Shown in pieces: positions 21,305 to 54,543 of a stretch of DNA of 63,789 nucleotides; position 1 is the first letter of the stretch, and each line of letters begins with the position of its first letter. This stretch comes from a virus. The notes beneath the pieces were generated by a model. That model was not told the origin of the DNA and ran no database searches. It saw only the letters and a program-made list of their open reading frames with translations. The stretch spans positions 1 to 63,789 of IMG/VR virus record IMGVR_UViG_3300043395_000803; one strand, 5' to 3'. The translations under genes and the position numbers were made by a program.

Positions 21305-21539
21305 ACTCTGTAAGAGATGCAAACATTACCAACCGAGCATCGACCGTCCTCGCCTGTACTCGGGCGCACTGGTCATGCGATGCGCCGCCAACCCATTCAA
21401 AGCCAGTAAAGGAATCGGAACCTGCATCGACAACCGAACCCGTGGGCCGTGCGGTAAGGAAGGGCGATTGTTCGTTGCCGCCGGGAATCCGGTAATACCC
21501 GAATCAATATCGTTCGGACAAAAGGTTCCCCAAGGGTGA
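21264..21539 (+). CDS. Putative zinc-ribbon-like phage protein
   Basis: 91 residues. ELCKRCKHYQP, LVMRCAANPF and GTCIDNRTRGPCG place Cys pairs in a ribbon-like order. Proteins of this type with 'CKHYQPS ... C' are known from phages without a function. Last gene of the plus-strand run from 18623. Confidence 0.6.
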   Translation: MFKLPQYTWDKDRELCKRCKHYQPSIDRPRLYSGALVMRCAANPFKASKGIGTCIDNRTRGPCGKEGRLFVAAGNPVIPESISFGQKVPQG

Positions 21540-21776
21540 CAGCCCGGCTGTTCATCCCTGCCCAGAGGGCACGCGATTGTGCCTTCCCAGCAAACCCTTG
21601 AGGCAGCGATTCCTTCGATGGAGCGTTTGTCGTCACCGCTTGCCGCTCCGTCTTCCCCGGTCCCTCGCTGACAGGCCGGACGGCTATGCCCCGGGGTGTA
21701 CGGGAGCCGGTGTTTCCTGGGTGCGGCCCATGCAAGCCCATTGCTAACGCGCCCTGACGACGACTAGGTAGCACCA
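21540..21776. other. Intergenic stretch, no gene seen
   Basis: 237 bases with no supported coding region. A small dyad GGCAC/GTGCC occurs near 21569-21584 and there are several GC-rich short dyads. It lies downstream of the early operon and of the structured RNA terminator. Confidence 0.5.
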
Positions 21777-21893
21777 AAGAAAAAACCGCTAAGACAGACC
21801 CCGGTGGCAACATCCCTCTAGTGGGAGGGAGTACCCCTTACGGGGTCGGAGTCTGACTTAGCGGTTCTCTCTGCCAGTTGCCACACAAGCAGT
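21777..21893 (-). ncRNA. Candidate structured RNA with pseudoknot potential
   Basis: Read on the minus strand, a 10-bp stem AACCGCTAAG/CTTAGCGGTT (21866-21857 with 21793-21784) encloses a second stem CAGAC/GTCTG and two hairpins (ACCCC-GTAA-GGGGT; TCCCTC-loop-GAGGGA). The outer stem ends directly in TTTTCTTTGG, as in an intrinsic terminator. A leader segment GTGGCAAC (21884-21877) is exactly complementary to GTTGCCAC (21811-21804) inside the loop, so it could form a pseudoknot or an alternative fold. A promoter lies just upstream at 21900-21929. No known RNA family is recognised. The RNA is inferred; the pairings are seen directly. Confidence 0.55.
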
Positions 21894-21899
21894 ACCCGA

Positions 21900-21929
21900 A
21901 TTTTGGGACATGTCCCATTTCTTTGTCAA
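21900..21929 (-). promoter_or_regulatory. Promoter with operator-like palindrome in the spacer
   Basis: On the minus strand a perfect TTGACA (21929-21924) is followed after 18 bases by CAAAAT (21905-21900, 4 of 6 matches to TATAAT). The 14-base perfect palindrome TGGGACATGTCCCA (21904-21917) fills most of the spacer. A protein bound there would block RNA polymerase, a typical repressor layout. It would drive the structured RNA. Confidence 0.5.
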
Positions 21930-27767: not shown

Positions 27768-27786
27768 TGGAAATCTTCATTAGTTT
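27761..27786. promoter_or_regulatory. Palindrome copy C at convergent gene ends
   Basis: Arms AAACTAATGGAAA and TCTTCATTAGTTT, almost identical to copies A and B. The left arm gives the Asn-stop of the Ref-like gene on the plus strand; the right arm gives the Asn-stop of the giant gene on the minus strand. Both convergent genes therefore end inside one element of 26 bases. Confidence 0.75.
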
Positions 27787-30700
27787 GCAGGTTTCTTAGG
27801 GGTTTCCTCTAACTTCTTGACCTGATCGTTCAGCCGTTTCATCTGGTTGGTGATCAGGTTTTCCTTGGCCTTCACCGCCTCGCGGGACGCCCCCTTCTCC
27901 ACCAATTCCTTGCGCTGTTTGCGAAGTTCGCGGATATTGCGCTCGGTCTCCCGGGCTGATTCAACCAGCCGCAACTTGGGGTTCTCCTTGACGAACTCGG
28001 TCACCGATTCCTTGCGGGACTGACGACCTTTGAGTTGGTTGTCAAGGATGTTTAGTTCCTCAAGGTTTTTGTAGAACCGAGCCGATTCTGCGTAGCCTGC
28101 CTTGGTGTCGCCATAGAACCGACCTGCCAACGGGATGTTGTACGGCGCAAGTTCTTCGCCCGTGATCATTGCTTCCGTAGTCTTGGTGGCCTTGAGAATT
28201 TCTCGGCCAAGACCGCCGGTCACTTGACCAGCCAAGTAATCAATTTGATCCGGCGTCGGACTGAACACCCCAGGCTTGTCTTTGTCACCACCAGAAGCAA
28301 GGTTCAAATAGTACGAAATCTGACGGCTAATCCAAGACGCATTCTCTCTGGCGCGCGTGTAGCCTGGGGTCGGGTCCAGTTTGCTGACATCTTCACGGGC
28401 GATCTTCTTGCCCGTCCAATCGCGGTTTTCTGTCAGAGCCACGATGGGGTCAGCGATAGTCGGCGCAATCGTCTGAGCAGATAGACCAGCATTGCCAATT
28501 GGGTTGAAAGCATCAAGGATCACATCAGCAAGATGCACAATCCGCTTGGCCGGGTCTTTACCGCCAGCAATCATCCACTCGGTCAGGATGCGACCAATCG
28601 CAGGGATGACGTGGTAGCCCAGCGGCAGGGGCCAAGCCAGATACTTGCCATCCCCAATCGGAATGATGAGGTTCCGATCCTTCACAAAGTCAGGCGGCTC
28701 GTTCTCGTCATACCCCATCGCAGCCAATGCGATGGCCTGGGCCGTGCCGATCAGCAAGCCACCATAAATCACTGCTTTACCGGCCTTGGTCAGACGCAGG
28801 CTCGTGATATCCCCAGGCCGTTCCATCTTGGCGACGGTCTGAAGCAGACGTGTCGTGCCCTGAACAGCAGAGTTGAAGAAGGCATACAGGGCACCAACCT
28901 GCACCGCGACTTGACCTTTGCGGTTGAAGTTAACCGTCAGGTTCTTGGCAAGACTGGCCGCGCGCTCTTTGCTCATGCCCGCATCAAGACCGGCCTTGTA
29001 TGCGCTCAAGCGAACAGCGTTCTCAAGAGTCTCGTTGTAGTCAGCAAGCCACCCAAAGATTGCGTTGCCCCCACGACGAACGACGCCCTGGTTCATCCGG
29101 TCGATCTCACGTTGCAATGCTTCAGCCCGCTCTTGCGAACGGCTGAACATGTCGCGGTATCCCGTCTGTCCACCCTGAGCCTGAAAGTCCCGCCACAGAT
29201 CGGCCCACTGCTTAGTGGCGGGCTGCGCCCCAGCGCGCTCTCTGCGAAGCGTGGAGTAGATGCCGGACATGGCACCAGCGATGTTGACCGGAGACAAAAC
29301 CTTAGCCCTAGAGTCCGCCAACTCAGTCCCAGACAACTGGATCGCAGCGCCTTGGAAGTCACGCAAGAAGTTGTAGGGACCGAAGATAGGGTTGTACTGC
29401 GTGTTGATGCTTGCGAACCACCGGGTCAGCGAAGCCACAAGTGACATGGCAGTGCCCAGTTGATCGGCGTCCATGTTCTTCAGTGACGATACCATCCGCG
29501 CAGCGCGGGGGTTCTGGGTGTTAAAGAACACATACCGATCCTGCCCGTTGACCCGAGCAGCAAGCACGTTGCCTGCGCCACGCAGCACAGGGTTCACTCG
29601 CTTGGTAACCAAGCCGGTCTGAGGATCGACAACAGTAGCAGCAGGCTCTTCCATCAAGCCTTCCGCATCCTGTTGCGTCAGGCCCATGTTGATCAGTTCA
29701 TCAACCGCTTTCTTCTTGGAAGTCTTGGCTTGCGGGTTGACGGCCAGCCACACTTCCGAGTTCGGGTTTTGCACGGCCAAGCCATACACTGCCACAGCAA
29801 CGCGGTTCTTCTCGCCACGCACGATGGCGCGCTCACGCTGCATGATGATGTTGGGCAGGATGTCCACAACAGTGCGGCGAGAACCCGTTGCACGGCGAGA
29901 GGACGGGCCGCGAACGCTGTAGCCCAAGCCCGTGCCAGTTCCGACCGTGGTGCTGTACTCCACATCGCCACGGTTCAACGGCACATAGTTGGGGGCTGCG
30001 CTTTCCCAAGAGTCAATCGTTGACCGCTCTTCAAGCCCGCTGTCCACCAGATACTCGCGGGTGCCCTTGGTGATGCCATCCACCATCTTGGCAAGCCGCT
30101 CATACTTCCTGCGCTGCTCGGGCGTCAGGTTATTTAGGTAAGCCTGGGCATCAGCCGTGTCGATACCAGAGCCACCGGAGAAAGGCGTTCCATCGTCAGG
30201 ATAGGCAGGGTTGACCTTGGCAATCTGGATATTGCGCTCTTCAGCAAACCGGTTGTGCAGGTACTCCTCAAGGTCGGCAATTGAAACGTCTTCCTCGTTC
30301 ATTGCCTCCAGCAGAGGACGAACCTCTTCACGCAGGAAGTTTGCAGTCTCCCTGGCCGTGCGACCGTGATACAACTCTTCTTGCAGGTAGGCGTCCCACC
30401 GATCCTCGATGCCACCAGCCGCTTCCTCAATCGCATCAACAGCGCGCTTGAGATCAATCTGCTTGTTCTGCAACCGATAGATCAGGTCGGCATCCAACTT
30501 GGTTTCATCGGGCATCGTCCAGGCCGCAAGGGGTTTGCGCCCGTAGATGTTTTTCCCAATCTGCAAGTAGTCTTCCTGCGAAGACAGCATGTCCCTGCTG
30601 ACAAACTTACCGTCGGCTTTGCTCAGACTATCAAGCGCCTTGATCAACGGCGCATCAGAACGCATGCCGAACATGCCCTTGATGCGCTCACCCAGTTCCT

Positions 30701-33700
30701 TGAGCCAGTTCTTCAGCCGGGCAAGCACTCCACCTTGGACTGCCTCATACCGACCGCGCACGATCTCAGAACCGTTGACGGCCCAGAACTCGGACGGGTT
30801 GACGAACTGATAGTTATCCATCTTGACCAGCCCAAGCCGCAACATCTCGATGGCGACGCGGTAACTGCGGTCATACAGGTTGGTGTCTACACCCATCCCT
30901 GACAGCATCAGGATGAACTTCGGGGCGTCCTTTAGGTATCTGACGGAGCCAGTGCCGAGGTGGTGGTTCATCAGCGCCTCGAAGAAGAACTTCTCCTCCG
31001 GGGTCTTGGCCTTCTTCTGAGCCGCCACCAAAGAGCGCAACCATGCTTTGCGGATGGCTTGCTGTACTTCAGCAGGCATCATGCGCTCAAGGTGGTGCAG
31101 GATTTCGTGGACGATGGTGCTGTCATTAGCAGCGCCCTTCATCAGCACCATGATGCGCTGCAGCGTGGCGTACATCCCAGCAGTGCCACCCTTCTTTGGA
31201 GTTTTGATGGCAATACCCAGGTCGCCCACCAGATTCTCGTTCTGAAGGATGAACCACTCTGCTAGGTTGACACTCTCTTCAGAGAGTTCGCCACGACGCT
31301 TGGCCTCAAGCAAACGCTGACGGATGTAGTCTGCGCCACGCACTCGTGCGGCAGCAGCCTTGTCGTATTTGCTTTCCTCATCAGCCTTGACAGCGGCATC
31401 AACCTCTTCAACAAACTTCTCGGGCGTGATCTTGCCGTCTTCGCGCTGGCGGTTCAGCGTCTTGACCTTGCGCTTGAGCGACGGAGAACGGTTGGACTGC
31501 TCCCCGGCAATCGGCTCTTGGGAGGAGAAGTCATAGCCCTTCGGCTGATCGGTGTCGATACTGTAGAGGAACTGCTCACGCTCACCGTACACCGGGTTCT
31601 TGACCAGCACAAACCGACCAACTTGCAACGCCTCATCGGCGGACAACACGGGCCGCTTGCTGTCGCGGGCATAGAAGTATGAATGGCGCAGCGGATCAAG
31701 GCTGACCTGCACCCAATCCGGGTTGTCGAGGTTCTGCTGAATGAGCCGGAAGGTTTCTTCCGGCGACATGTTGACCCATTCGCCCTCCATTGTTTGCTGG
31801 GGCTTCTTCTCGTCAACCGACTTCAAATACTCTTCGCCGGTCTTTTTGCGACGGAGTTCGGGTTCTGCCTGCTGGGCAATAAGAAACGCCTCATCCTCGC
31901 GGCGGATAGCCATCTTCACATTCTTGATGGCCCCAGTTGAGCGGTAACTAAGGTTGTCACCAGCCGTAGCATTCTCAAGGGGAGCACCCTTGTGAATGGA
32001 AACAACACTTCCGTTGACGCCGTTTGCCTTACCCCACTCAAGGGCCGGGATGTCCATGCGAAGACCAACGCGAGTGCCATCAGCGATGGGAGCATTGACC
32101 TTATCCGGGTCTTTCTTCTGCTTGATCTTCTTGGTAAGGATTTCGGTCATCATGCCGTCTTCAACCGGCGGCTCCATGACTCCACCAAGAACAGTCGTGA
32201 TCGGCAGGTATGCCTCTACATATTCGTCGTACTCAGCCTTAGTAATGCGCCCTGCTGCCAACTCGCGCGCGGCCATAACCAACTGAGTCTTGCGTCCTTT
32301 CTTCGGTTCAAACCCTTCGGGCACAGGCAATAGAGGGGGTTGCTTCTTTTCAGCAACTTCTGGGCTTGCACCTTTGGCCGCAGCACGAAGGTCCGCTTCG
32401 GCCTGCTTGTAATCCCGGCTGAAGTAGTACGGCTCATCAACAACGCTTGAGATTTCCTCGTAGGTCATGCCCGCATTCACCGCCTCCTCGAAGACGGCAC
32501 GGTCCATCAAGTCATACTTGTTGGAGATCGCAAGCACTGGGTTGTCCACAGCGTTGTTCGCCATGAAGAAGGCGTAGGCAAATCCTTCCGGCGTTACGCT
32601 GCGGGCATTCTTTGTAGCCTGGGACTTGCCGCCATACATGCGGTGCATCTTCGATCCCTCTGTCGCTTCGACAGGGGCAATCGGCATATCGGCATTGAAC
32701 CGACCCCACAGCAGAGTCTTCTTGGTGTACGGATCACCGAAGTGATTTGGGTTCCATGAAGACCTCCAGGGCGGCAGGCCGGTCAGTTTCTCAATCCGTC
32801 CGACAGGGTTCTCAATCGCCCAGACGGAAGGCTTGAAGTATTCGATTGTCGCCAAAGTTTGACGGACCAACTCGACCGACTCCAGTGTGCGGCCATCCTC
32901 ATCCTTCGCAGCAAAGTGACGGGCACCACTGGAAGCAAAGTCAGTGCAAGGGCAAGCAGCCAAGATTGCGTAAATGTCCTGGCCCTCAAACGCACCAAAG
33001 ATGTCGTTGAAGAAGTCAGCGGAAAACTTATTGACATCCCCGAATTCAGGATCAGTCTGAATATCAAAACGGTAGACCTGATACCCAGCCGCATCCCAAG
33101 GCATGCTCCATTCGCCCGTCAGGTCAAACAGAGACAAAACAATTTTGTTGGCATTGACGCCGGTATCGCCTTGCTCAAAGGCATGCTGCTTCCACTTGGC
33201 GATTTCCTGCTTGGCTTCAGCCAAGGTCATGTAGCCACGATCCTTGGTGTAGACGCGGACCTTATCCTCAATCCGCACAACTTCGTTCTTGGTGGGCGGA
33301 TCAAAGACTCGGGTTTCCCGCTCATCTTCCTGGCTTTGCTCGGCATCCTTGAAGGCACCAGCAACTTCTTTCACCTCTTCATCAGAGGCTCCACGGAATC
33401 CGGTGTCGTTCTCGTCCACCGCCTCACCGGGCTTTGCTTCAGCCTTCTTTTCTGCCTTCTCTTCGACAGGAGCCAACTCCATCTGCCCACGGGCCGCAGC
33501 CTCATCAGCAGCGCGCTCACTGCCGGTCAGCACAAACTCTTCAGCGGGCGGAACCTCGGCAGGCTTGGCTTGCTCTTCCTTGCGGGCGCGCTCTTCACGC
33601 TCGGCCTTGGCGCGCAACTCTTCGGGCGTCTGCGTGGTCAGCACCGGGGGCGCAGCGCCGCGCTCGGCACGAATCTCGGCGATCAGTTCAGGATTGACAG

Positions 33701-36700
33701 ACCAGTTATCCCACGCTGCCTTCATCTGCCGCAGTTCGTTGATGCGGTTGTTGACAGCCTGGGGATCGCGGATGTCGATGCCTTCGGAAGCAGCCAACTG
33801 AGGATTGCGGGCAGCACCAGAGATGGCGGACAGACGGGTCTGGATTTCCTTCTGCTTGCGACCGGCGATCTTTGCCATCTCCTCTGCCTCTTTCATGGCA
33901 GAGTCGTCAAAGCCAAACATGTCGGTCGTGGTGTCCGCTTCCCCAGCCAGGGCGCGGACAGCCTGCATCATGTTGACGGCAGTCGCAGCAGACTTGCCAT
34001 CAGCAACAGCCTTGATGCCTACGCTTTGGAGCCGGGCATCGCCGGGCGCGTTGATTGCGATGAGGTACGCAGCCTCATCAGGGATTTGGTCGGCACGGAC
34101 ACCGGCAATGAGTTCATCACTTCCGTCATTTGCGATTGAGAAAGCCCGCTTGCCCGGCGCTCTTGCCAGTAATCCTCGTGCGTTTGCCGTTTCCCGGTCG
34201 AGCCCTGTGCCTTTGAAGTAGTTGACATAGTCCTTTACCTTTCCTTGACCGTCACGAATGTTGAGTTCTGCATCCAATACAGCAGCCATGTCACGGGTGA
34301 ATCCCTTGGACTCATCGTGAATCTGCGCCGGGATGGTCTTCTCACCACTGCGCTTTGCAAGATCAAAGCGATGCCGACCGGAGATGATCTCCATCCGGCC
34401 ATCAGTCCTGCGCCAAACCTGAATAGGCGCAACACCCGTGCGCTCGAACTTACCGCCCAGCGCCTCAACGATGCCTTCCTTGTCTGCGCCCGTCTTGAAC
34501 TGCGGCACATCTTCTGACAGGGTCAGTTGATTGACCGGAACTTCAACAACCGCCTGACGAGGAATTTCTGTCTGAGGCGGCAGCGGTTCAACCTGAAGCG
34601 CATCTTTAGCCGCTTCTTGTACTGGCTCGCTGGGCTCCAGTTCTTTCTTTGGAATAACAATGTACTCGCGTCCGTTGGTGGTGACAAAACTCACCCCATC
34701 GTAGCCTTGATCTCGCGCGGCATTGACAATGTCAGCCATGCCTTGATCTTGGCGAAGGCCCAAAGCAGTTTTTGCGTCTGTCCAACGAGGCACGTCCAAC
34801 AGTTTGTTAAACGTGACCTCCGTTTCTTGAATGTTGCCTTCGGCACCGGCATACATCTCCGCAATCTTCCGGTCGGGAGACATGAACCGTGCGTCGCCAA
34901 CAGTTGGCTGACCTTCCTTGCCTTTCTGAATTCCACGGAACAGTTTGACTCTTTCCGTTTGAGCAGGCGGAACCTCGGCAGGCTTGGCTTCCTTAGCAGA
35001 AGGCGCAGTGCCCTTTTCTATTACGCCGCCAGTGTTCGTGACACGATTGCCATCGGCATCGGTATAAAACTGAGGGGCCAAACGAACCCAGATTTGATCT
35101 AGGCCCATTGCTTTACCAGACTCAGGCTCTCCTTGGATTGGCTCAGGAAGAATTGCGGTTACGTTTCCACTCTTATCACGAATGACTCGAACAACCTTTA
35201 CCCGGTCGCCGGTCTTACTACCATCATCTGTAATAATAGTGTCGCCTTCTTCGATAGAGTTGGCGAGTTCTTGAGCCTGCTGTTGACGGCCTTGCGGAGT
35301 ATCAGCAACCTGTATAGGGTTAGGATTCTTCCAAACCACAGGCCCCTCTGCTGCACGCTCAAGTTCCTCAATTGCAGACTGTTGCTCACGCATAGTCGCA
35401 GGAGCGGCAGGTGAAGGGGCGGGAGCGCCCTCAAGCGCAGGTTCAACGCGCTCGCCAGGAACTGGGGGCACAGGACGTTCCTCAAACCTCGGCTCAATCC
35501 GTTCGGCAGGGGCCGGAGTAACTGGAGGAGCGGGGGGCGCGGCAGGAGGGGAAACCTCGGGAGCCTTCCTCGATTCTTGGATGGTGCTAAGTGCGGTAGT
35601 GCCAACGGCTTGAGGCCCAGCGCCCAGGGCTTCGGCAACGATGTCGCCCAGTTTAAATTCACCGGTTGCTTGTTGAGCAGCCGCCTCACCTGCGGCTTCC
35701 AACCCGACTTCACCCGCAACGTTTACCGCACCACGGCCAATGTTTCGCGCAAGTTGCCCAGGCCGCAAAGGACGGGCAACCAAACCGCTAAGAGCATCAG
35801 CGGCTGCGATCACCGTGCCACGGGTAACCGCTTTTTTCCCTGCTTGCTTCAGGAACTCTGGGTCACGCAACTTGGCGTCAATCGCCCTCTCATCCTTCAT
35901 GTTGACGTTTGCATCTCGCAACGAATCAACCAAGGACGAGAAGTATTCGACCGGGAAACTGCCGGTTGCAAGGCCGGTCATCATGCCTGCAAGACCGCCG
36001 CGCAGCAGAACGCCAGCAGCACCGCCGATCAACGACGGGAGGACGTTGGGCGCAGACTCAACAGACAGTTGCTGGGCAATACCCAACGGGTCTTTGAGGA
36101 ACGCCTCCTTCGCAGCCTGATAGTCGCCCTTATTGAGCGACTGGATCATCTGATCGGCCAAAGGATTCCGGGCGTACTGCTGCTGCTCCGCGCCATAGGA
36201 AACTACCTTGGCTATGTTGGACGGCAACACCCTCTCAAACTGAGCGCGGACTTTTGCCCTCTGCTCAGGCGACATGTCTTGATAGCCAACCGGGTCTTCG
36301 GATGCGGGGACAGTCTCACCCCGATCAATCCTGTCAAACACAGCCAAGTTCTCAGCAGTGCCCTTTGCCGTACCTGCAAAGTAACTTTGCTGAAGCCCTG
36401 CAAGGCCAGACTTAAACTGCTCTGGGACAAGCCCAAGGTTAAGCCCGGTGGTTCGATTGCGGTCAGCAATAGCCTCAATGCTCGACTCTGCCGCTTCCAA
36501 AGTGCGGGCGGCTTCATCCTGGGCAAGACGGCGCTTGATACGTTCCTGCTCAGGAACCATGTCCATGATGTCCCCAATCGTGGGAGAGACATCAGGGAAC
36601 TGCACACGGGGAGCCGGACCTGCCGCTGGTGCAGCAGGCTGACGAGGTGCAGGTTGTTGCTGCGCGGCGGCTAGGATGCCCATCAGACCCTCACGGCCTT

Positions 36701-37055
36701 GGGTTATCTCACGGCGGCGCTGATCCTCAACGGATAGGTCGGCAAGGATTCTCTTGGCCGCATCAGCACGGATGCCTCTGCCCATAGAGGCTTCTTGCAA
36801 AGCGGCACGGCGCTGCTCAGGAGGTAGGTTGCCGTACTCCGAGCGAACTTGCTCCACGAACTCCGGGCGGAGCATGAAGCCCGCAGGCATGGACGGGCGC
36901 TGATCCAGCCCAGCCTGTACGGCAAGAGTTTGAGGAGGACTAACTGGCGCTGCCGGTGCTTGCTCACCAAGGTGAGACAGAATTTTCGCCTTGGCCGCTG
37001 CCGGGTCAGTTTCAACAAGTTCGTAAAACTGACCTTTGTATTCGTAGACCGGCAT
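27780..37055 (-). CDS. Giant polyvalent (virion-injected) protein
   Basis: 3091 residues, one uninterrupted frame. Parts in order: an N-terminal segment with hydrophobic Gly-rich stretches (about 335-460) and a Pro-rich linker (about 500-560); an ADP-ribosyltransferase-like segment (about 700-803: LFRGIQKG, YDGVSF); a ParB-like domain (about 860-1060: IISGRHRFDLAKRSG); a cytosine-methyltransferase-like domain (about 1300-1470, AACPCTDF near 1368 and ENPVG near 1414); a zincin-type protease motif HEILHHLE (1983-1990); and a long C-terminal LPD38-like region (about 2250-2990). This matches the polyvalent proteins that phages package and eject with their DNA to protect it and act on the host. 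Domain borders are approximate. Confidence 0.8.
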   Translation of the reverse strand: MPVYEYKGQFYELVETDPAAAKAKILSHLGEQAPAAPVSPPQTLAVQAGLDQRPSMPAGFMLRPEFVEQVRSEYGNLPPEQRRAALQEASMGRGIRADAAKRILADLSVEDQRRREITQGREGLMGILAAAQQQPAPRQPAAPAAGPAPRVQFPDVSPTIGDIMDMVPEQERIKRRLAQDEAARTLEAAESSIEAIADRNRTTGLNLGLVPEQFKSGLAGLQQSYFAGTAKGTAENLAVFDRIDRGETVPASEDPVGYQDMSPEQRAKVRAQFERVLPSNIAKVVSYGAEQQQYARNPLADQMIQSLNKGDYQAAKEAFLKDPLGIAQQLSVESAPNVLPSLIGGAAGVLLRGGLAGMMTGLATGSFPVEYFSSLVDSLRDANVNMKDERAIDAKLRDPEFLKQAGKKAVTRGTVIAAADALSGLVARPLRPGQLARNIGRGAVNVAGEVGLEAAGEAAAQQATGEFKLGDIVAEALGAGPQAVGTTALSTIQESRKAPEVSPPAAPPAPPVTPAPAERIEPRFEERPVPPVPGERVEPALEGAPAPSPAAPATMREQQSAIEELERAAEGPVVWKNPNPIQVADTPQGRQQQAQELANSIEEGDTIITDDGSKTGDRVKVVRVIRDKSGNVTAILPEPIQGEPESGKAMGLDQIWVRLAPQFYTDADGNRVTNTGGVIEKGTAPSAKEAKPAEVPPAQTERVKLFRGIQKGKEGQPTVGDARFMSPDRKIAEMYAGAEGNIQETEVTFNKLLDVPRWTDAKTALGLRQDQGMADIVNAARDQGYDGVSFVTTNGREYIVIPKKELEPSEPVQEAAKDALQVEPLPPQTEIPRQAVVEVPVNQLTLSEDVPQFKTGADKEGIVEALGGKFERTGVAPIQVWRRTDGRMEIISGRHRFDLAKRSGEKTIPAQIHDESKGFTRDMAAVLDAELNIRDGQGKVKDYVNYFKGTGLDRETANARGLLARAPGKRAFSIANDGSDELIAGVRADQIPDEAAYLIAINAPGDARLQSVGIKAVADGKSAATAVNMMQAVRALAGEADTTTDMFGFDDSAMKEAEEMAKIAGRKQKEIQTRLSAISGAARNPQLAASEGIDIRDPQAVNNRINELRQMKAAWDNWSVNPELIAEIRAERGAAPPVLTTQTPEELRAKAEREERARKEEQAKPAEVPPAEEFVLTGSERAADEAAARGQMELAPVEEKAEKKAEAKPGEAVDENDTGFRGASDEEVKEVAGAFKDAEQSQEDERETRVFDPPTKNEVVRIEDKVRVYTKDRGYMTLAEAKQEIAKWKQHAFEQGDTGVNANKIVLSLFDLTGEWSMPWDAAGYQVYRFDIQTDPEFGDVNKFSADFFNDIFGAFEGQDIYAILAACPCTDFASSGARHFAAKDEDGRTLESVELVRQTLATIEYFKPSVWAIENPVGRIEKLTGLPPWRSSWNPNHFGDPYTKKTLLWGRFNADMPIAPVEATEGSKMHRMYGGKSQATKNARSVTPEGFAYAFFMANNAVDNPVLAISNKYDLMDRAVFEEAVNAGMTYEEISSVVDEPYYFSRDYKQAEADLRAAAKGASPEVAEKKQPPLLPVPEGFEPKKGRKTQLVMAARELAAGRITKAEYDEYVEAYLPITTVLGGVMEPPVEDGMMTEILTKKIKQKKDPDKVNAPIADGTRVGLRMDIPALEWGKANGVNGSVVSIHKGAPLENATAGDNLSYRSTGAIKNVKMAIRREDEAFLIAQQAEPELRRKKTGEEYLKSVDEKKPQQTMEGEWVNMSPEETFRLIQQNLDNPDWVQVSLDPLRHSYFYARDSKRPVLSADEALQVGRFVLVKNPVYGEREQFLYSIDTDQPKGYDFSSQEPIAGEQSNRSPSLKRKVKTLNRQREDGKITPEKFVEEVDAAVKADEESKYDKAAAARVRGADYIRQRLLEAKRRGELSEESVNLAEWFILQNENLVGDLGIAIKTPKKGGTAGMYATLQRIMVLMKGAANDSTIVHEILHHLERMMPAEVQQAIRKAWLRSLVAAQKKAKTPEEKFFFEALMNHHLGTGSVRYLKDAPKFILMLSGMGVDTNLYDRSYRVAIEMLRLGLVKMDNYQFVNPSEFWAVNGSEIVRGRYEAVQGGVLARLKNWLKELGERIKGMFGMRSDAPLIKALDSLSKADGKFVSRDMLSSQEDYLQIGKNIYGRKPLAAWTMPDETKLDADLIYRLQNKQIDLKRAVDAIEEAAGGIEDRWDAYLQEELYHGRTARETANFLREEVRPLLEAMNEEDVSIADLEEYLHNRFAEERNIQIAKVNPAYPDDGTPFSGGSGIDTADAQAYLNNLTPEQRRKYERLAKMVDGITKGTREYLVDSGLEERSTIDSWESAAPNYVPLNRGDVEYSTTVGTGTGLGYSVRGPSSRRATGSRRTVVDILPNIIMQRERAIVRGEKNRVAVAVYGLAVQNPNSEVWLAVNPQAKTSKKKAVDELINMGLTQQDAEGLMEEPAATVVDPQTGLVTKRVNPVLRGAGNVLAARVNGQDRYVFFNTQNPRAARMVSSLKNMDADQLGTAMSLVASLTRWFASINTQYNPIFGPYNFLRDFQGAAIQLSGTELADSRAKVLSPVNIAGAMSGIYSTLRRERAGAQPATKQWADLWRDFQAQGGQTGYRDMFSRSQERAEALQREIDRMNQGVVRRGGNAIFGWLADYNETLENAVRLSAYKAGLDAGMSKERAASLAKNLTVNFNRKGQVAVQVGALYAFFNSAVQGTTRLLQTVAKMERPGDITSLRLTKAGKAVIYGGLLIGTAQAIALAAMGYDENEPPDFVKDRNLIIPIGDGKYLAWPLPLGYHVIPAIGRILTEWMIAGGKDPAKRIVHLADVILDAFNPIGNAGLSAQTIAPTIADPIVALTENRDWTGKKIAREDVSKLDPTPGYTRARENASWISRQISYYLNLASGGDKDKPGVFSPTPDQIDYLAGQVTGGLGREILKATKTTEAMITGEELAPYNIPLAGRFYGDTKAGYAESARFYKNLEELNILDNQLKGRQSRKESVTEFVKENPKLRLVESARETERNIRELRKQRKELVEKGASREAVKAKENLITNQMKRLNDQVKKLEETPKKPAN

Positions 37056-40222: not shown

Positions 40223-43200
40223 TCAGGCCTTTCCAATAATTTGCATCAGTTCTTCGATGGTCGCAGCAGGATTTTCCTGTGACAACGCAATGATTTGATC
40301 CACGGCATCCTGCGTCATATTTTCGTCCGCAGACCCTTGTAGCGCAAGTTCCATAGCATCCCGGGCTTTTGCCGCGCGGCCTTGGAAATCCGTCACGTCC
40401 GCCATTGACTGGGCGCGCTTGCCCGGCTGTCCGTACTTCATTGCCTCGTAGTAAAAGGCTTCGTACTTTGGAAGTTCGGACAGTTGGCTTACCTGTTGCT
40501 GCCGCATAGGCATAGCCCGAGGTACGGCAACAGGCGTAACCCTTGGCGCCACCTTGGGCGTCACCACCGGAGTCACTTTCGGGGTGACCACGGGAGTTAC
40601 TGTCGGGGTGACCGTAGGAGTAACGGTAGGCGTGACAGTGGGTGTCACGGTTGGCGTTACGGTGGGGGTAACTGTCGGCGTAACCGTGGGAGTCACCGTC
40701 GGAGTGACCGTGGGCGTAACGGTAGGCGTAACCGTTGGTGTGACGGTAGGCGTCACAGTCGGGGTCACCGTGGGAGTTACGGTTGGTGTCACTGTTGGAG
40801 TAACAGTGGGCGTCACGGTGGGGGTGACTGTTGGTGTGGCCGTCGGCGTCACAGTCGGAGTGACTGTTGGTGTGGCCGTAGGAGTGACAGTAGGGGTGAC
40901 CGTGGGGGTCACTGTAGGAGTTACTGTCGGGGTCACAGTAGGCGTTGCCGTTGGAGTGACGGTTGGAGTCACCGTCGGTGTAACCGTTGGAGTGACGGTT
41001 GGGGTAACCGTGGGTGTGACTGTGGGAGTCACAGTCGGGGTGACTGTCGGGGTTACGGTTGGAGTGACCGTGGGTGTGACGGTAGGGGTAACCGTCGGAG
41101 TAACCGTTGGCGTGACGTCTGGAGTAACCGTAGGCGTTACTGTTGGAGTAATGGCGGGCGCAACCGTCGGCGTTATCGTGGGCGTAACAGTTGGGGTGAC
41201 AGTGGGAGTTACCGTTGGCGTAACGGCGGGGGTAACCGTTGGCGTTACTGTTGGCGTAACAATTGGAGTTACTTCTTTGGGCGGTGTTACTTCTTTGGGT
41301 ATCACATCCTCCTTCGAAACCCCAGGGGTTTGCGGGGTAGTCATAACACCTTCCTTTGGCACGCCGAGGTCACCCGCAGTCAGCACATTACCAAACATGT
41401 CCGTAAGGATAGGAGTGCCCGTTGCAATCGTGGGGCCAGTCTTGGTGCCTGTATTTAGCACCAGATCGGTCAGGTCGGTAATATCTTTTGGCAGGCGCGT
41501 ACCCGTGACCGTGACAGTTTGATCAACCGATCCAGGGATATATGGAGCAGCGTTGGGGTCGTACCCGCCATAATACTTACCCGTGATGCGGTTGTACTCC
41601 CACTGCAAATTGGGATCGTTCGGCGTCTTAGACAGTTCGGCTTCGACCAGCGGCAACCAATCGGCAAGTTGTATAGCAGCACTATAGGTATTAGCGTAAT
41701 CATCTGTCAGGGCTGCACCGCCACGCCGCACTCTATTGATAAGGTCAGATACGGTTGGGGGTTTTGTGCCTGTAACATCCCGGGCTTCTACATCAATAAC
41801 ATCGCCGGGCTTGGTGGTTGTTTGCCCTCCTGGCTTATTAAGAAGTTTGTTTATATCTTCTGCGCCCTGGGCAACCCCGCCGTACAACTCATTCCAAAAC
41901 TTAATTGCCCCGGACGGGTCTGTCTTGTACGCAAGCCGTTCTATATCTTCAGGGGTAAATGAATACCTCTGATTCCCGACCTGATAAGAAAAACTGCCAG
42001 ACGCATCTCTGGTAACCGGCACGGGCACAATCTTGCCCGCTTCATCCATGATCCCGTAGAAGATGTCACCGGTTTTGATGTTAAGGTTGACGCCCGGATT
42101 TATTTTTGTAGAGACCTTGCCATCGCCGGATGTCTGCACCATCCCATAGTCATCATCGGGATCGTAGACACTGACGCCCCCGGCAAGGGAATACACCGGG
42201 TCACTGATGATGTTTGCCGCAGTAGTTGTAGTTGGCGCTGTCGTAGGCGGCTGTGTACCCGGGGGGCGGCTTGCCATCGCAGCAGACAACTGCTGCGATG
42301 CGGTGAGGATAGCGTTCAGGTTACCGGAGGTAATTGCTTGCGCCAGAGAGACAGCACGTCCGGCAACGACGGTATCCGGGCTATCAGCCAACTGCCCAAG
42401 CGACGCCAGGGCTTGACCGTATTGGCCGTTCTGTATGGCCGTAATGGCTGAAGCCCCCTTGAGTGCGTCGCCAAAAGTAAAGTTGGTGCCGCCAATCGTG
42501 GTGTTTAGAACGTCCTTACCAAGTTCACTGCCTGCCGCCGCTGAAAGTAACGCACCCCAATTCTCGTTCTTGATAGCATTGGCAATGTTTGCGCCGGTCG
42601 AGATATTTGCAAACGTAGAAGTCGGAACACCCGCAAGGTTGCCCGTGTTGACAACTGCTCCGCTGATTGGGTCAATTGCCGTGGCAGCGCCGGACAGACC
42701 CGCGAGCGCACCTGCACCGGCGGCGATTGCCCCGAGATAGTTGCCCTGTCCAGCCTGAAATGCGGCGTTGGCAAGCATGCCCCACGGCCCAAGAGCCGGG
42801 GCAATCATTGAGAAAATGGTCCCTACGGGAGCCTTCCATTCTTCGGAATAATCAAATCCTTTTGGTTGGCCGACAATCTTACCGTCTGCACCAAATTGAT
42901 AAACGATTCCGCTATCGCCGCCGGTAAAGTAGCGCACCTCACTGCCAGTTATGTTTCCGGCGTCGTCGTATGTCAGTTTCGTCTGAAGCGGCAGTCCTCG
43001 ATCATTCTTTGTTTCTTGAAACGCCTCAAACCCGCCACCCGTGCGATTACCGGAAAAGTCATACCCAATCGGCATTGACCGCACGGTGTAGTTACCGACT
43101 TGTACGCCGGGGTCGTTGTAAGTAGAAGCCTCACCCATCAAGTTTGCCTGGGCATAACTGTTTCGTAATTGATCGGCAATACTTGGGTCTTTACTTAGCA

Positions 43201-43888
43201 GCGTGGATAACAAATCTTGCGGCTTTGCAGACGCCGCCGCGCTGATTGCTGAGGCGGTTGTGTTTTGGGTGGTCGGCGTTGGCGTGGGTGCCGTAGGGGC
43301 GGGGGTTGGAGTTGTGGGCGTTGGCGTTGGCGAAACACCAAGATCACCCGCCGTCAGTGTCTGACCGGACGTATCCGTGATGACCGGCGTCGTCGGCGTT
43401 ACTGGGGTTGGGACTGTCGGTGTGGGTGTAGGAGTAGGTGTGGGCACCGTACCTATAACCGTATCTTGCAAAATACTTTGCAAGTCCTCTGGGGTGTAAT
43501 CGCCGCTCCTATAGAGATTAAGTAACTCTTGACGGTCAAACTGTGTAGGGGCAATGGTAGTAGTTGCCGCCGTGGGGGCCGTGGTAGTCGGCGCGGTAGT
43601 AGCCGTCGTAGAAGGCGGTTGCGTACCTGTTGCCCGATAGTAATCGGCCAACGTGAAGTTGGTACCGAGGGCGCTGTTCCACTCAGAGATAGTTTGCTCC
43701 GGGCTCCACCCCTGCTGCGCTGCATACTGAAGGCCGCGCACAGTAGCAGCAGCATGATCACCGGGGCTCCCGGCGTACATATAAGACTTGAAATCAAACG
43801 GAGCCGGGGCAGCGGCCTCACCGCCGCCGACGATATTCAACAGGTCGTTTTCTGTCGGCTCGCGCTCATCGAAGTAGTTCATCGCCAT
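40223..43888 (-). CDS. Large virion protein with Thr-Val-Thr-Pro repeat
   Basis: 1221 residues. An N-terminal domain (GWSPEQTISEWNSALGTNFT) is followed by Thr/Pro linkers, a middle domain with YDFSGNRTGGGFEAFQETKN-type text, a hydrophobic Gly/Ala-rich stretch (ALGPWGMLANAAFQAGQGNY) and, from about residue 870 to 1111, an almost unbroken array of about 60 TVTP units. A short helical C-terminal domain closes it. The repeat should form an extended, stiff, possibly glycosylated stalk. Position among tail and internal proteins suggests a virion role; a fibre or a tape-like spacer are both possible. Confidence 0.6.
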   Translation of the reverse strand: MAMNYFDEREPTENDLLNIVGGGEAAAPAPFDFKSYMYAGSPGDHAAATVRGLQYAAQQGWSPEQTISEWNSALGTNFTLADYYRATGTQPPSTTATTAPTTTAPTAATTTIAPTQFDRQELLNLYRSGDYTPEDLQSILQDTVIGTVPTPTPTPTPTVPTPVTPTTPVITDTSGQTLTAGDLGVSPTPTPTTPTPAPTAPTPTPTTQNTTASAISAAASAKPQDLLSTLLSKDPSIADQLRNSYAQANLMGEASTYNDPGVQVGNYTVRSMPIGYDFSGNRTGGGFEAFQETKNDRGLPLQTKLTYDDAGNITGSEVRYFTGGDSGIVYQFGADGKIVGQPKGFDYSEEWKAPVGTIFSMIAPALGPWGMLANAAFQAGQGNYLGAIAAGAGALAGLSGAATAIDPISGAVVNTGNLAGVPTSTFANISTGANIANAIKNENWGALLSAAAGSELGKDVLNTTIGGTNFTFGDALKGASAITAIQNGQYGQALASLGQLADSPDTVVAGRAVSLAQAITSGNLNAILTASQQLSAAMASRPPGTQPPTTAPTTTTAANIISDPVYSLAGGVSVYDPDDDYGMVQTSGDGKVSTKINPGVNLNIKTGDIFYGIMDEAGKIVPVPVTRDASGSFSYQVGNQRYSFTPEDIERLAYKTDPSGAIKFWNELYGGVAQGAEDINKLLNKPGGQTTTKPGDVIDVEARDVTGTKPPTVSDLINRVRRGGAALTDDYANTYSAAIQLADWLPLVEAELSKTPNDPNLQWEYNRITGKYYGGYDPNAAPYIPGSVDQTVTVTGTRLPKDITDLTDLVLNTGTKTGPTIATGTPILTDMFGNVLTAGDLGVPKEGVMTTPQTPGVSKEDVIPKEVTPPKEVTPIVTPTVTPTVTPAVTPTVTPTVTPTVTPTITPTVAPAITPTVTPTVTPDVTPTVTPTVTPTVTPTVTPTVTPTVTPTVTPTVTPTVTPTVTPTVTPTVTPTVTPTATPTVTPTVTPTVTPTVTPTVTPTATPTVTPTVTPTATPTVTPTVTPTVTPTVTPTVTPTVTPTVTPTVTPTVTPTVTPTVTPTVTPTVTPTVTPTVTPTVTPTVTPTVTPTVTPTVTPVVTPKVTPVVTPKVAPRVTPVAVPRAMPMRQQQVSQLSELPKYEAFYYEAMKYGQPGKRAQSMADVTDFQGRAAKARDAMELALQGSADENMTQDAVDQIIALSQENPAATIEELMQIIGKA
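40553..41275. repeat. 12-bp coding repeat (TVTP units)
   Basis: About 60 tandem 12-base units on the minus strand encode Thr-Val-Thr-Pro. The third codon bases vary freely while the amino acids hold, apart from a few Val-to-Ala or Ile changes, so selection acts on the protein repeat. The antisense strand is open for 322 codons only because of this periodicity. Confidence 0.9.
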
Positions 43889-50352: not shown

Positions 50353-53300
50353 TTACATTGCAGCAATAACAAACGCCAACAGTTCATCGTAACGAACGCC
50401 AAAGCGGGTTACCTTTACGGCATTTGGGGTTTCTGAGGTGTAAGGCTCGTTTGGCCGAGCCTCAGATATTCCATCCACTTCATACCAAGTATCAGAGCAA
50501 AACAATCCATAACGATTTGGGTCAAGACCTTCAGAAACAAAAGCGGCCTGAACGTCTTGAGCAATTACTCCAACATGAATTCGAGCGCCGACGCCTTTCT
50601 TAACAACAGCATCCTTAAAGCGAAACTTCTTGATAAGAGATTTAATGCGAACGGCGACACGTTTTTCTGCATCATCCAAATCAGCAATGTCTTGCTTGCT
50701 GTTAGCATCAGAAGTGTTAATCGTGCCAGAGGTTGCGTAGATAGTGTTCCAGCGATTTGTTGCTGTTCCGCAATTGGCATTTCCATCTGTACTGGTATAG
50801 AGAGCCGTTCCGACAAACACCAAGTTGTAGGTCGAGGAGTTGATTTGCATCCTCGGATTCCCATCCCCATCCGACAGCACGATCCAGTTGTTGGCAGTGC
50901 GGATGTCGAGGCCACCTTGGTTGCCGTTGTATTGACCAAGGATGGTGTTCTTTGCGCCAGTCGTGATGTAGTAACCGGCTTGATTTCCAACCATTGTGTT
51001 GGAGGTGCCCGTAATACTGAAGCCTGCCTGATAGCCGACATAAACAGCGCCTGCTGCGCCAGTAGTCCCGCTATACCCCGCCTGATAACCAACAGCAGTG
51101 TTGTTTGCGGCAGTGGTGTTCTTCGCCAAAGCACCAATACCGACGCCCGTGTTATTTGCACCTGTCGTGTTTGCCTGAAGCGCCGCCTCCACAGTGCCAT
51201 CATTGCCGCCAACAGCCACGTTTGATTGGCCGGTTGTGTTGGAATACAAGGTGTATGCGCCAACCGCAGTAATTTTTCCCGTTGTGTTGGAGTAGCCAGA
51301 TGCCCAACCAATGAAAGTGTTTTGACCGGCAGTCGTATTACTATACCCCGCCTGATAACCAACAGCGGTGTTGTTGGAAGCGGTGGTGTTGGCTTGGAGC
51401 GCCTCCCTACCGATGGCGGTGTTTTGTGCGCCAGTAGTGTTGGAATATAAACCCGCGTACCCGACGGCAGTGTTGCTTGAGGCGGTTGTGTTGAAACGCA
51501 GCGCCAAGTCACCGACGGCCACGTTATACGAACCCGTGGTGTTCACCACCAAAAGATCAGCGCCGCCAATAGCAGTGTTGGAAACGCCGGTTGTATTTCC
51601 TTCCAAACTTGAAAGGCCGACCGCTACGTTCCTTGAACCCGTCGTGTTGGAATAAAGCGCGTTGACGCCAACTGCGGTATTCGTGATGCCGGAAGTGTTG
51701 AAGAGCAAAGCGTTTGAGCCAACCGCCGTAATATTGGCAGAGGTGTTGGAAGTCGCCGCGCGGTAACCGATGGCAGTGACGCCGCTATTGGCGGCAACTG
51801 TGTAAGCCGCCTGATAACCAACAGCGGTGTTGTTGTTGCCGGTGGTGTTGGAAAAGAGAGCAGACTGACCAACCGCTACGTTGTTGATGCCGGTGGTGTT
51901 GGAGTACAGGGAGAAACCGCCGAGCGCGGAGTTGTCCCCTCCGGTTGTGGTTGAGTATCCGGCTTGATAACCAACCCCGGTATTAGTACTTGCGGTTGTT
52001 GCTCTGAAAGCCTGCAAACCGACTGCAACGTTATAAACGCCCGTCGAATTAAGTCTGAGAGCCTCATACCCAACAGCGGTGTTGTTTGACCCAGTGCCAG
52101 TCGTATAACCCGCCTGATAGCCAATAAAAGTGTTGGCCCCTGCGTTATTAGAGTACCCCGCCTGATACCCAACAGCAGTGTTGTTGGAGGCGGTGGTGTT
52201 GGAGTAGAGCGCGAGACTGCCGAGCGCAGTGTTGTTGTTACCTGTGGTGTTGAAGCGAAGGGCTTGGCTTCCGACTGCAACGATGTCTGAACCAGTCGTG
52301 TTAGAAGTCGCAGCCAAATACCCCATGACCGCGATTGGAGTGCCAGTCGTAGTCGAGTACCCCGCTTGATAACCAACGGCGGTATTGTTAGAGGCGGTGG
52401 TGTTGGAGTAAAGAGCCAGTGTTCCAACTGCCGTGTTGTATGAGCCGGTGGTGTTGCCATTAAGTGCACCAGAACCAACCCCGACATTATAGGCTCCAGT
52501 GGTTATAGACTGACCAGTATAATAACCAAGCAACGTGTTGTCATTGCCGGTGGTTACTCGGAAACCGGCATGAGAACCTGAAATGGTGTTGTTGGACGCC
52601 GTGTTTGTTCCGCCAAAACCATACCCGGCCGCTTGACCAAAAATTGAATTATCACTGCCGGTTGTTAAGGTATACGCCCCTCCTTGCCCAACAACCGTGT
52701 TATTTGTACCAGTTGTATTGCTATACGCCGCCTGATGTCCCACGGCGGTGTTGTTGGAAGCGGTGGTGTTGTTGGCGAGCGCAGAATCTCCGATGCCCGT
52801 GTTGTTATTGCCACTCAGAGTGGTAACGTTCCCACCCATTGAGTTGTAGCCAAAACCAGTATTTGATTGTCCCGTTGTGCTGCCGTAGCCCGAATATGCG
52901 CCACCAAACGCATTGCGCGTGCCCGTGGTGTTGTAATAACCCGCCTGATAGCCAACGGCGGTGTTATTGGAAGCGGTGGTGTTGGCTTGAAGTGCGCGGT
53001 GGCCAATTGCCGTGTTATAAGAGCCAGTAGTATTGTTTTGAAGCGCGGCGCCGTCAACGCCGTATGCGCCCCCACCTATAGCCGTATTATTAGTACCCGT
53101 TGTATTGGAGAAAAGAGTAAGGTATCCAAATGCAGTATTGTCTGAGGCCGTACTTACTTTAAGCGCGTTGTGGCCGAAAGCGGTCACGCCGTTCGCGGTA
53201 GATGCCGTATATCCTGTTTGAGCGCCGAAGTAGTTGTTCGCTGTGCCAGTAGTATTGCTATACCCCGCCTGATAGCCGACAGCCGTGTTGTTGGAGGCGG

Positions 53301-54543
53301 TGGTGTTGGAGTAGAGCGCCGACTTTCCAATAGCCACATTGAAGTTGCCTGTGGTGTTGGTGGTCAGCGCATAGGTGCCCAAGCCAACGTTTGACGCCCC
53401 TGTTGTGTTGGCGTACATGGCTTGCCAACCAAAGGCTTCATTTGTAGTGCCTGAAGTGGATGAGTACAGGGACTGATAACCAACAGCGGTTTGATATGAG
53501 CCTGTAGCCAAATAACCGGACTGCACTCCAATATAGGTGTTTTGAATCCCAGTGCTGTTTGTATAAGCAGCCTGATAGCCGACAGCAGTGTTGTTGGAGG
53601 CGGTGGTGTTGGTGTTAAGGGCATTTACGCCTACGGCTGTATTGTTTGAGCCAGAGGTGTTGCCTGTAAGGGCGGCATCACCAATAGCGGTGTTAGCGCT
53701 TCCTGTTGCAGTGCCGCTTGAACCAGCAAGAGTAGAAATACCAACAGCAGTGTTACTTGAACCTGTAGTGTATAGAGCCGCAAAATAGCCAACAGCAGTA
53801 TTGCGAGAACCTGTTGCATTTACAGCCAGCGCTGTATTACCCACCGCAGTGTTGGTGGACACAGCACCCGCGCCACGGCCTACGGTGATGCCGTAAACAG
53901 TCAGGTCAGTGCCGGAGTACAGCAGGTTGGCCGAACTGGTGAGGTTGCCGCCCGTAGTGGTGTAGACCACCCGGCCAGTGGTAAGGGAGGAATCGGTCAG
54001 GTCAGCAACGGTCAGCGTGGTGCCGTTGAAGGTCATGTTGGCAGAGCCTGCCAGGACACCAGACGAATTAAATTGAACCTGTGTGTTGGAGCCCCCGGCA
54101 CCCAAGACCGTGGTTGCCACCTTCACGAAGTCCGAACCGTTCCAGGCAATCAGTGCCTTCTCGCCAGACACCATCGTGACGCCCGTGGTCGGGCCTGCAC
54201 CCACCACCTTGACTGACTGCGAAGTCGATGTGGAATTCAAAACAAGATACTGACGGCTTGATGCGGGCGCCGTGATGGTGAGCAGCGACGCCGGGTTTCC
54301 GGTGCAGTTGATGATGGCGTACTGGGCAGAGCCAGAAGAGCCCGTCCCAACCTGCGTCAACGCCGTGCCGTTGGTGACCGTGAGCGTTACCGCTGTCTGG
54401 CTACCGCTGATTGTCTGGGTGCCTTCGACGGCGGAATCTAAATATGAAGTAATATAATCATTAACGGTACTTCCCCAAGTTCCTTGTAATTCACCAGTAA
54501 CTGGAAGCGCAAGGCCGAGAAGAGGAGAATATGAGGTCGGCAT
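50353..54543 (-). CDS. Tail fibre with S74 intramolecular chaperone
   Basis: 1396 residues. The N-terminal 150 residues (YSPLLGLALPVTGELQGTWG) fit a tail-attachment domain. The middle is about 40 copies of a 23-residue unit close to NNTAVGYQAGYSNTTG, resembling YadA-head or bacterial adhesin repeats and likely a trimeric beta-roll shaft. The last 110 residues (SDANSKQDIADLDDAEK ... FGVRYDELLAFVIAAM) form a Peptidase_S74 chaperone, which folds the trimer and then cuts itself off; the Ser and Lys of SDANSK are the likely catalytic pair. Confidence 0.88.
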   Translation of the reverse strand: MPTSYSPLLGLALPVTGELQGTWGSTVNDYITSYLDSAVEGTQTISGSQTAVTLTVTNGTALTQVGTGSSGSAQYAIINCTGNPASLLTITAPASSRQYLVLNSTSTSQSVKVVGAGPTTGVTMVSGEKALIAWNGSDFVKVATTVLGAGGSNTQVQFNSSGVLAGSANMTFNGTTLTVADLTDSSLTTGRVVYTTTGGNLTSSANLLYSGTDLTVYGITVGRGAGAVSTNTAVGNTALAVNATGSRNTAVGYFAALYTTGSSNTAVGISTLAGSSGTATGSANTAIGDAALTGNTSGSNNTAVGVNALNTNTTASNNTAVGYQAAYTNSTGIQNTYIGVQSGYLATGSYQTAVGYQSLYSSTSGTTNEAFGWQAMYANTTGASNVGLGTYALTTNTTGNFNVAIGKSALYSNTTASNNTAVGYQAGYSNTTGTANNYFGAQTGYTASTANGVTAFGHNALKVSTASDNTAFGYLTLFSNTTGTNNTAIGGGAYGVDGAALQNNTTGSYNTAIGHRALQANTTASNNTAVGYQAGYYNTTGTRNAFGGAYSGYGSTTGQSNTGFGYNSMGGNVTTLSGNNNTGIGDSALANNTTASNNTAVGHQAAYSNTTGTNNTVVGQGGAYTLTTGSDNSIFGQAAGYGFGGTNTASNNTISGSHAGFRVTTGNDNTLLGYYTGQSITTGAYNVGVGSGALNGNTTGSYNTAVGTLALYSNTTASNNTAVGYQAGYSTTTGTPIAVMGYLAATSNTTGSDIVAVGSQALRFNTTGNNNTALGSLALYSNTTASNNTAVGYQAGYSNNAGANTFIGYQAGYTTGTGSNNTAVGYEALRLNSTGVYNVAVGLQAFRATTASTNTGVGYQAGYSTTTGGDNSALGGFSLYSNTTGINNVAVGQSALFSNTTGNNNTAVGYQAAYTVAANSGVTAIGYRAATSNTSANITAVGSNALLFNTSGITNTAVGVNALYSNTTGSRNVAVGLSSLEGNTTGVSNTAIGGADLLVVNTTGSYNVAVGDLALRFNTTASSNTAVGYAGLYSNTTGAQNTAIGREALQANTTASNNTAVGYQAGYSNTTAGQNTFIGWASGYSNTTGKITAVGAYTLYSNTTGQSNVAVGGNDGTVEAALQANTTGANNTGVGIGALAKNTTAANNTAVGYQAGYSGTTGAAGAVYVGYQAGFSITGTSNTMVGNQAGYYITTGAKNTILGQYNGNQGGLDIRTANNWIVLSDGDGNPRMQINSSTYNLVFVGTALYTSTDGNANCGTATNRWNTIYATSGTINTSDANSKQDIADLDDAEKRVAVRIKSLIKKFRFKDAVVKKGVGARIHVGVIAQDVQAAFVSEGLDPNRYGLFCSDTWYEVDGISEARPNEPYTSETPNAVKVTRFGVRYDELLAFVIAAM
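50930..53870. repeat. 69-bp coding repeats of the fibre shaft
   Basis: Dozens of roughly 69-base units on the minus strand encode NNTAVGYQAxYxNTTG-type repeats. Several neighbours are nearly identical in DNA (phrases such as gcctgataaccaacagcggt recur), so recombination between units could readily change shaft length. Confidence 0.85.

Follow-up and report, generated by a model that had tools for sequence, protein, structure and literature searches.

A terminator-closed, pseudoknotted RNA of phages and its possible role as a conditional terminator

Described leaders and structured RNAs compared with RNA-1

In phage lambda, the PR' leader with its terminator tR' (lambda 6S RNA) is the setting of Q-dependent antitermination. 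Here we compare this and other described systems with an element, called RNA-1, found at positions 21773-21929 on the minus strand of the window, that is, the whole 63,789-base IMG/VR virus record IMGVR_UViG_3300043395_000803. The element consists of a sigma70-type promoter followed by an RNA of about 115 nucleotides (nt), in which a short word in a 5' loop, the lock, pairs with an internal strand to form a pseudoknot. As in the lambda PR' leader, a promoter, a short leader RNA and a strong terminator precede what would be the transcript that matters and, by analogy, RNA-1 may work like a promoter-proximal terminator leader. Unlike in lambda, no antiterminator protein or qut-like site was identified here, although the protein was not sought systematically, and the pseudoknot with its hypervariable lock has no counterpart in the PR' leader.

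In type III toxin-antitoxin systems, a terminator separates the RNA from the downstream gene. The ToxI RNA of these systems is pseudoknotted (PMC5772629). RNA-1 differs in that no toxin gene lies directly downstream, a second noncoding RNA (RNA-2) and then convergent genes being found there. GOLLD and ROOL are structured phage RNAs with no assigned function, frequently located near tRNA islands (PMC12286853); they measure several hundred nt or more, whereas RNA-1, at about 115 nt, is closed by a terminator and has a single loop-to-strand lock. The c4 antisense RNA and the manA and wcaG motifs are phage structured RNAs that emerged from comparative genomics (PMC2864571), and both their architecture and their hosts differ from those of RNA-1. 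RNA-1 showed no Rfam match to ToxI, to GOLLD or ROOL, or to this last group. Betaproteobacteria-1 (RF02932) resembles RNA-1 in being structured, noncoding and carried by the same phages, but it is a neighbour of RNA-1, has another consensus structure and does not match 21773-21929, where its gathering score (49.4 bits) was not reached.

A sequence-only reading of this DNA had proposed a structured RNA at this site and an Rfam scan as a check. No family matched at its gathering score when 4227 Rfam 15 families were run against the whole window, and a local search of the RNA-1 site up to E = 10 returned chance-level matches only. Neither ARAGORN nor Rfam detected a tRNA or tmRNA, no known Rfam family of self-cleaving ribozymes matched RNA-1, and no description of it was found in the openly accessible literature searched. 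By these comparisons, the RNA-1 class, which is absent from Rfam, is a member of no family tested.

Fold, covariation and promoter of RNA-1

Comparison among relatives shows that the conserved fold of RNA-1, its pseudoknot, its promoter and its terminator are real, as is its tandem arrangement with RNA-2. The features of the site are as follows.

21924-21929, minus strand: -35 hexamer TTGACA, seen in the letters; the promoter recurs in 72 non-redundant relatives
21904-21917: candidate operator, the perfect 14-base palindrome TGGGACATGTCCCA, made of 12 spacer bases and the first two of the -10
21900-21905, minus strand: -10 hexamer CAAAAT, seen in the letters, with an 18-nt spacer to the -35
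21871-21892, minus strand: P0, predicted 5' hairpin with the lock strand in its loop; the hairpin flank of this strand is seen again in relatives
21877-21884, minus strand: PK5, 5' pseudoknot (lock) strand GTGGCAAC, from partner-shuffle and covariation tests
21857-21866, minus strand: P1a, 5' strand of the closing/terminator stem, AACCGCTAAG, from RNAalifold and covariation
21847-21855, minus strand: P2a, 5' strand of the inner stem, CAGACTCCG, from RNAalifold and covariation
21833-21846, minus strand: P3, hairpin ACCCC-GUAA-GGGGU, from fold and covariation
21812-21831, minus strand: P4, hairpin of varying length and sequence, with an A-rich loop in relatives
21804-21811, minus strand: PK3, internal pseudoknot strand GTTGCCAC, which abuts P2b and pairs with PK5
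21795-21803, minus strand: P2b, 3' strand of the inner stem, CGGGGTCTG, from covariation
21784-21793, minus strand: P1b, 3' strand of the closing/terminator stem, CTTAGCGGTT, from covariation
21780-21785, minus strand: T6 run of the intrinsic terminator, seen in the letters
21520-21776 (approximate ends), minus strand: RNA-2, second conserved structured noncoding RNA, directly after the RNA-1 terminator, from comparative evidence

The sequence-only reading had described a minus-strand TTGACA-N18-CAAAAT promoter ahead of a region of about 115 bases with a closing stem of 10 base pairs (bp), two hairpins and a T-run, and all of these were located. The closing stem, P1, doubles as the terminator stem. 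The inner stem, P2, was given as 5 bp but has 9 bp, including one G-U (CAGACTCCG/CGGGGTCTG). The 8-bp leader-to-loop complement is exact and interleaved, as had been stated, with both P1 and P2; its 5' strand, however, sits in the loop of an additional hairpin, P0, and pairs from there with the strand just inside the inner stem. RNA-1 has a minimum free energy of -66.5 kcal/mol (z = -6.7), and none of 200 shuffled sequences folded as low. The length of its core ignores multiples of three (32, 20 and 21 of 73 relatives fall in the three phases), so that, as had been supposed, no protein-coding frame explains the region. With a promoter, a short noncoding transcript (predicted), a G+C-rich stem and a U-run, RNA-1 has the composition of a terminator-closed small RNA.

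The first homologue was found in a spring-water siphovirus assembly (GenBank MW202545, locus L002), where the same promoter, stems and pseudoknot occur with compensatory changes. An IMG/VR search pattern built from the window and MW202545 sequences matched at least 119 stretches of this class (class A); 73 of the matches listed were non-redundant. RNAalifold predicted 26 nested pairs for the 73 sequences, 12 of them with two-sided changes. We also aligned 87 class A members with a covariance model built without the pseudoknot. Though absent from the model, the pseudoknot was paired in 95.7% of the cells of this alignment, and two-sided compensatory changes were present at five of its seven pairs; at one position, G-C was found 30 times, A-U 24, C-G 16 and U-A 8. 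Covariation over the whole structure was 0.342, against 0.160 in shuffles (0 of 500) and 0.05-0.13 with slid partners. In nearly all of the aligned sequences, the inner stem carries a U-G wobble at one of two adjacent positions. An alignment-free measure gave a class A lock of 7.41 nt with its own partner and 5.19 nt with exchanged partners. An interleaved helix is maintained through compensatory changes, as in a pseudoknotted RNA.

Further loci were gathered through neighbouring proteins rather than through the RNA, and these held diverged members. An architecture scan of 158 such loci found 79 terminator-plus-lock elements, against 10 in shuffled copies, and the elements were sorted into classes A (that of the window), B, C, D and E. 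The sister class, B, is represented by at least about 120 IMG/VR stretches, some of these raw matches possibly being due to chance because the pattern is short; the lock was not part of it. In 99 class B sequences there are 46 distinct lock words, each of which keeps its complement, and the lock measures 7.17 nt, as compared to 3.39 nt with exchanged partners. Together with the changes at the class A pseudoknot, this bears out a genuine pseudoknot, one of the two options that the sequence-only reading had given for the interleaved pairing; a lack of compensatory changes in related phages would have counted against a structured RNA. In the lowest bin of stem divergence, where the stem strands of two sequences are the same or almost the same, lock words were unlike in 67% (class A) and 53% (class B) of the sequence pairs, so that the lock changes more quickly than the stems and yet remains self-complementary. 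Linker lengths between PK5 and P1 cluster narrowly at 12-14 nt in classes A and B alike, and the pseudoknot and the stem may therefore compete. Class B relatives are present in cultured phages (Pseudoalteromonas phages BS5, HS2 and Pq0; Vibrio breoganii phage 1.085.O and others; Vibrio phage NF), where a second varying complement is also seen.

The promoter recurs as well. Over the 72 non-redundant relatives, the best sigma70 match averages 9.58 out of 12, against 6.76 in shuffles. The end of the -10 lies mostly 12-17 nt ahead of the lock strand in these sequences, and the transcript should therefore begin at P0; in the window the start is predicted at about 21893. The palindrome, described earlier as an operator filling the spacer, is present and perfect, but also takes in the first two bases of the -10. 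Exact or in a purine/pyrimidine (RY)-equivalent form, TGGGACATGTCCCA is also found in the RNA-1 promoters of L048, L149 and L250: L149 has the palindrome of the window and L250 the RY-equivalent TAGGACATGTCCTA. It recurs with one mismatch in L196. L250 and L196 belong to class D, yet share the palindrome of the class A window, and this recurrence in the promoters of other classes makes a candidate operator plausible. Against this, the majority of the phages have different promoter dyads, or none. Dyads are modestly enriched in the promoters overall (mean arm 2.23 vs 1.69, the maximum of 50 shuffles being 2.18). The promoter is probably operator-controlled.

RNA-2 and the part played by RNA-1

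The reading we favour, to which we give an even chance of being correct, is that RNA-1 acts in cis as a conditional terminator that gates the RNA downstream. RNA-1 would be transcribed from a sigma70 promoter of its own, probably under operator control, up to the terminator made by its closing stem. The loop of its 5' hairpin locks, via a 7-8-bp pseudoknot, onto the strand just inside the closing stem. It would form the promoter-proximal half of a two-RNA cassette, with RNA-2 or tRNAs as the second half. The terminator would then set the amount of polymerase that continues into RNA-2, and the pseudoknot would tune the formation of the terminator stem during transcription. More speculatively, the fast-changing, self-complementary lock could keep the RNA from pairing with the copies of other phages. 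Terminated RNA-1 may also be a stable product.

RNA-2 is located downstream of RNA-1 in 66 of the 71 class A loci, at a median of 9 nt past the T-run, a count that speaks less strongly for gating in that some of these loci served to train the RNA-2 models. RNA-2 also follows classes B, D and E. In V. breoganii phages (L428 1501-1751, MG592460), tRNA-Trp and tRNA-Arg come immediately after the T-run of RNA-1, with no promoter between. RNA-2 or the tRNAs begin within about 10-25 nt of the U-run, which leaves too little room for a separate promoter. Because no promoter fits between RNA-1 and RNA-2, we infer that RNA-2 is reached by read-through, and its position directly after the terminator points to a role in cis.

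The RNA-2 of the window and 19 others share 34 predicted pairs, 24 of which have two-sided changes. Folded as a single sequence, the window RNA-2 is not unusual (z = +0.5), so that its support is comparative. At least six sequence types of RNA-2 occur directly after RNA-1 (for example, L002 6110-6330 and L249 6692-6809). One type is Betaproteobacteria-1, directly downstream of RNA-1 in L249 and L237; the L249 copy scores 103 bits for RF02932. This family does not reach the window RNA-2 and gave nothing in the window at E up to 10. Hairpin-bounded modules are inserted at varied places of RNA-2 in L012, L013, L014, L028, L040, L065, L087 and L100, an example being GATGATGGTGA ... CACCATCATC, as if noncoding modules were being swapped.

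Besides the training overlap, several observations weigh against gating. Neither the folds nor the alignments revealed a conserved antiterminator pairing for P1, and the terminators look strong everywhere, so that RNA-1 itself may be the chief product. The classes of RNA-1 and the types of RNA-2 occur in free combination, and thus no specific pairing between the two RNAs is required. RNA-2 also occurs on its own, as in Acidovorax phage AP1, where it comes after the primase gene, a placement that suggests Burkholderiales as hosts. Complementarity between the lock loop and the post-terminator strand exceeds that of shuffled partners by little, 4.95 as against 4.37 (1 of 300), and the corresponding switch pairing, present in some loci, is absent in the window.

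It is also possible, though we rather doubt it, that RNA-1 is a free-standing, trans-acting small RNA (sRNA), a pseudoknotted molecule that binds a host or phage protein as a decoy, inhibitor or chaperone client, with RNA-2 a separate RNA of the same island. This is the main rival because a promoter and a terminator make a complete gene, and nearly all members have their own promoter and a strong terminator. The very unlike gene neighbours on both sides, which include the convergent genes of the window, the compact fold with no exposed seed, the occurrence in phages only, and the tRNA genes near RNA-1 in L002, L069 and the V. breoganii phages would all suit a trans-acting RNA. Such an RNA, however, leaves unexplained why, in 66 of 71 loci, another stable RNA begins right behind the terminator, with no room for a promoter.

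A ligand-sensing, riboswitch-like attenuator of the downstream transcript is improbable. A pseudoknotted leader directly before a terminator would agree with it, as would the location of class C in the 5' untranslated region of a ParB-like gene, but the lock word is hypervariable and no pocket-like core of invariant unpaired bases was found; the CCGACCCC and CACCGGGGTC blocks look invariant because the search pattern demanded both, and they diverge in other classes. We give little credence to the idea that RNA-1 is merely an elaborate terminator that insulates the downstream region, the RNA itself having no role: closing stem and T-run do form a standard intrinsic terminator, often located after the end of another transcription unit, but such a device could do without a dedicated promoter that starts at P0 and without a 7-nt pseudoknot that co-evolves. 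That the compact, pseudoknotted RNA is a self-cleaving ribozyme, or mimics tRNA, tmRNA, 6S RNA or a CRISPR repeat, is hardly credible, with no meaningful Rfam match up to E = 10 and no tRNA or tmRNA found; a ribozyme-like element had been among the suggestions of the sequence-only reading.

A broader form of the conditional-terminator reading is more tentative. The classes might form a superfamily, spread over the phages of Betaproteobacteria in freshwater and of Gammaproteobacteria in the sea, in which a hypervariable, always self-complementary pseudoknot word puts an identity lock on the terminator built into the RNA and gates modular downstream noncoding RNAs (RNA-2 types, tRNAs). This would be an RNA-level self/non-self or dose-control device with no known precedent. 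RNA-1 adds to phage biology an abundant class of structured RNA, present in hundreds of environmental phages, with a covariation-proven pseudoknot and a lock that changes where the stems do not. If gating is true, phages control noncoding RNA output through a folded, self-recognising terminator. The second RNA that accompanies RNA-1 includes a type listed in Rfam as an sRNA, and the two are thus testable together; experiments are within reach through the relatives that cultured phages of Pseudoalteromonas and Vibrio carry.

Other classes, occurrence and gene context

Class C (TTGGCGG/CCGCCAA) was found at L232 3779, L235 4613, L241 4573, L245 4580, L249 2876 and L253 4464. It has the same architecture, with a promoter-like -10 on one side and, directly adjacent on the other, the ribosome-binding site of a gene, ParB-like in several loci. 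From this position it looks like a cis attenuator, which speaks for the conditional-terminator reading. A second loop pairing, GGGTA/TACCC, is possible in this class. Class D (L243 1864, L250 8339, L255 7960, L259 8406) has a near-constant lock, GGCTTGGT or ATTGGT, and a second, hypervariable hexamer pairing (CACAGA, CGATAC, CAGTAC, CGTAGA and others) preserved by compensation. The strand after the T-run often repeats the internal lock strand (L002 6092, L019 10447, L032 2852, L056 10233), and pairing with the leader loop could thus take place. A search of this phage for sites that the lock loop might target in trans found no excess of complementary sites.

All matches in bacterial genomes were discounted. 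The 26 pattern matches in 84,980 bacterial and archaeal species genomes correspond to chance and lack the closing stem and terminator. The one 35-bit covariance-model match in 369 genomes is an ordinary terminator hairpin, the negative from this taxon sample, which was not picked to include hosts, being weak evidence. Model matches on the opposite strand are mirror images of the stems. In MW202545, the deposited hypothetical genes UOF78434.1 and UOF78433.1 (5945-6402) overlap RNA-1 and RNA-2, and are probably spurious gene calls.

Upstream of RNA-1, the window has a PAPS-reductase-like gene, then a PD-(D/E)XK nuclease, a Sak annealing protein and SSB. On the other side of RNA-1 are a ParB-like gene, so called after the gene at the corresponding place in other phages, and HNH, helicase and Toprim primase genes; RNA-2, directly downstream, is followed by convergent genes. 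Very long open frames are found at 27780-37055 (3091 amino acids), at 40223-43888 (1221 amino acids, with a long PTVT repeat) and at 50353-54543 (1396 amino acids, with NTAVGYQAGYSNTTG-like repeats).
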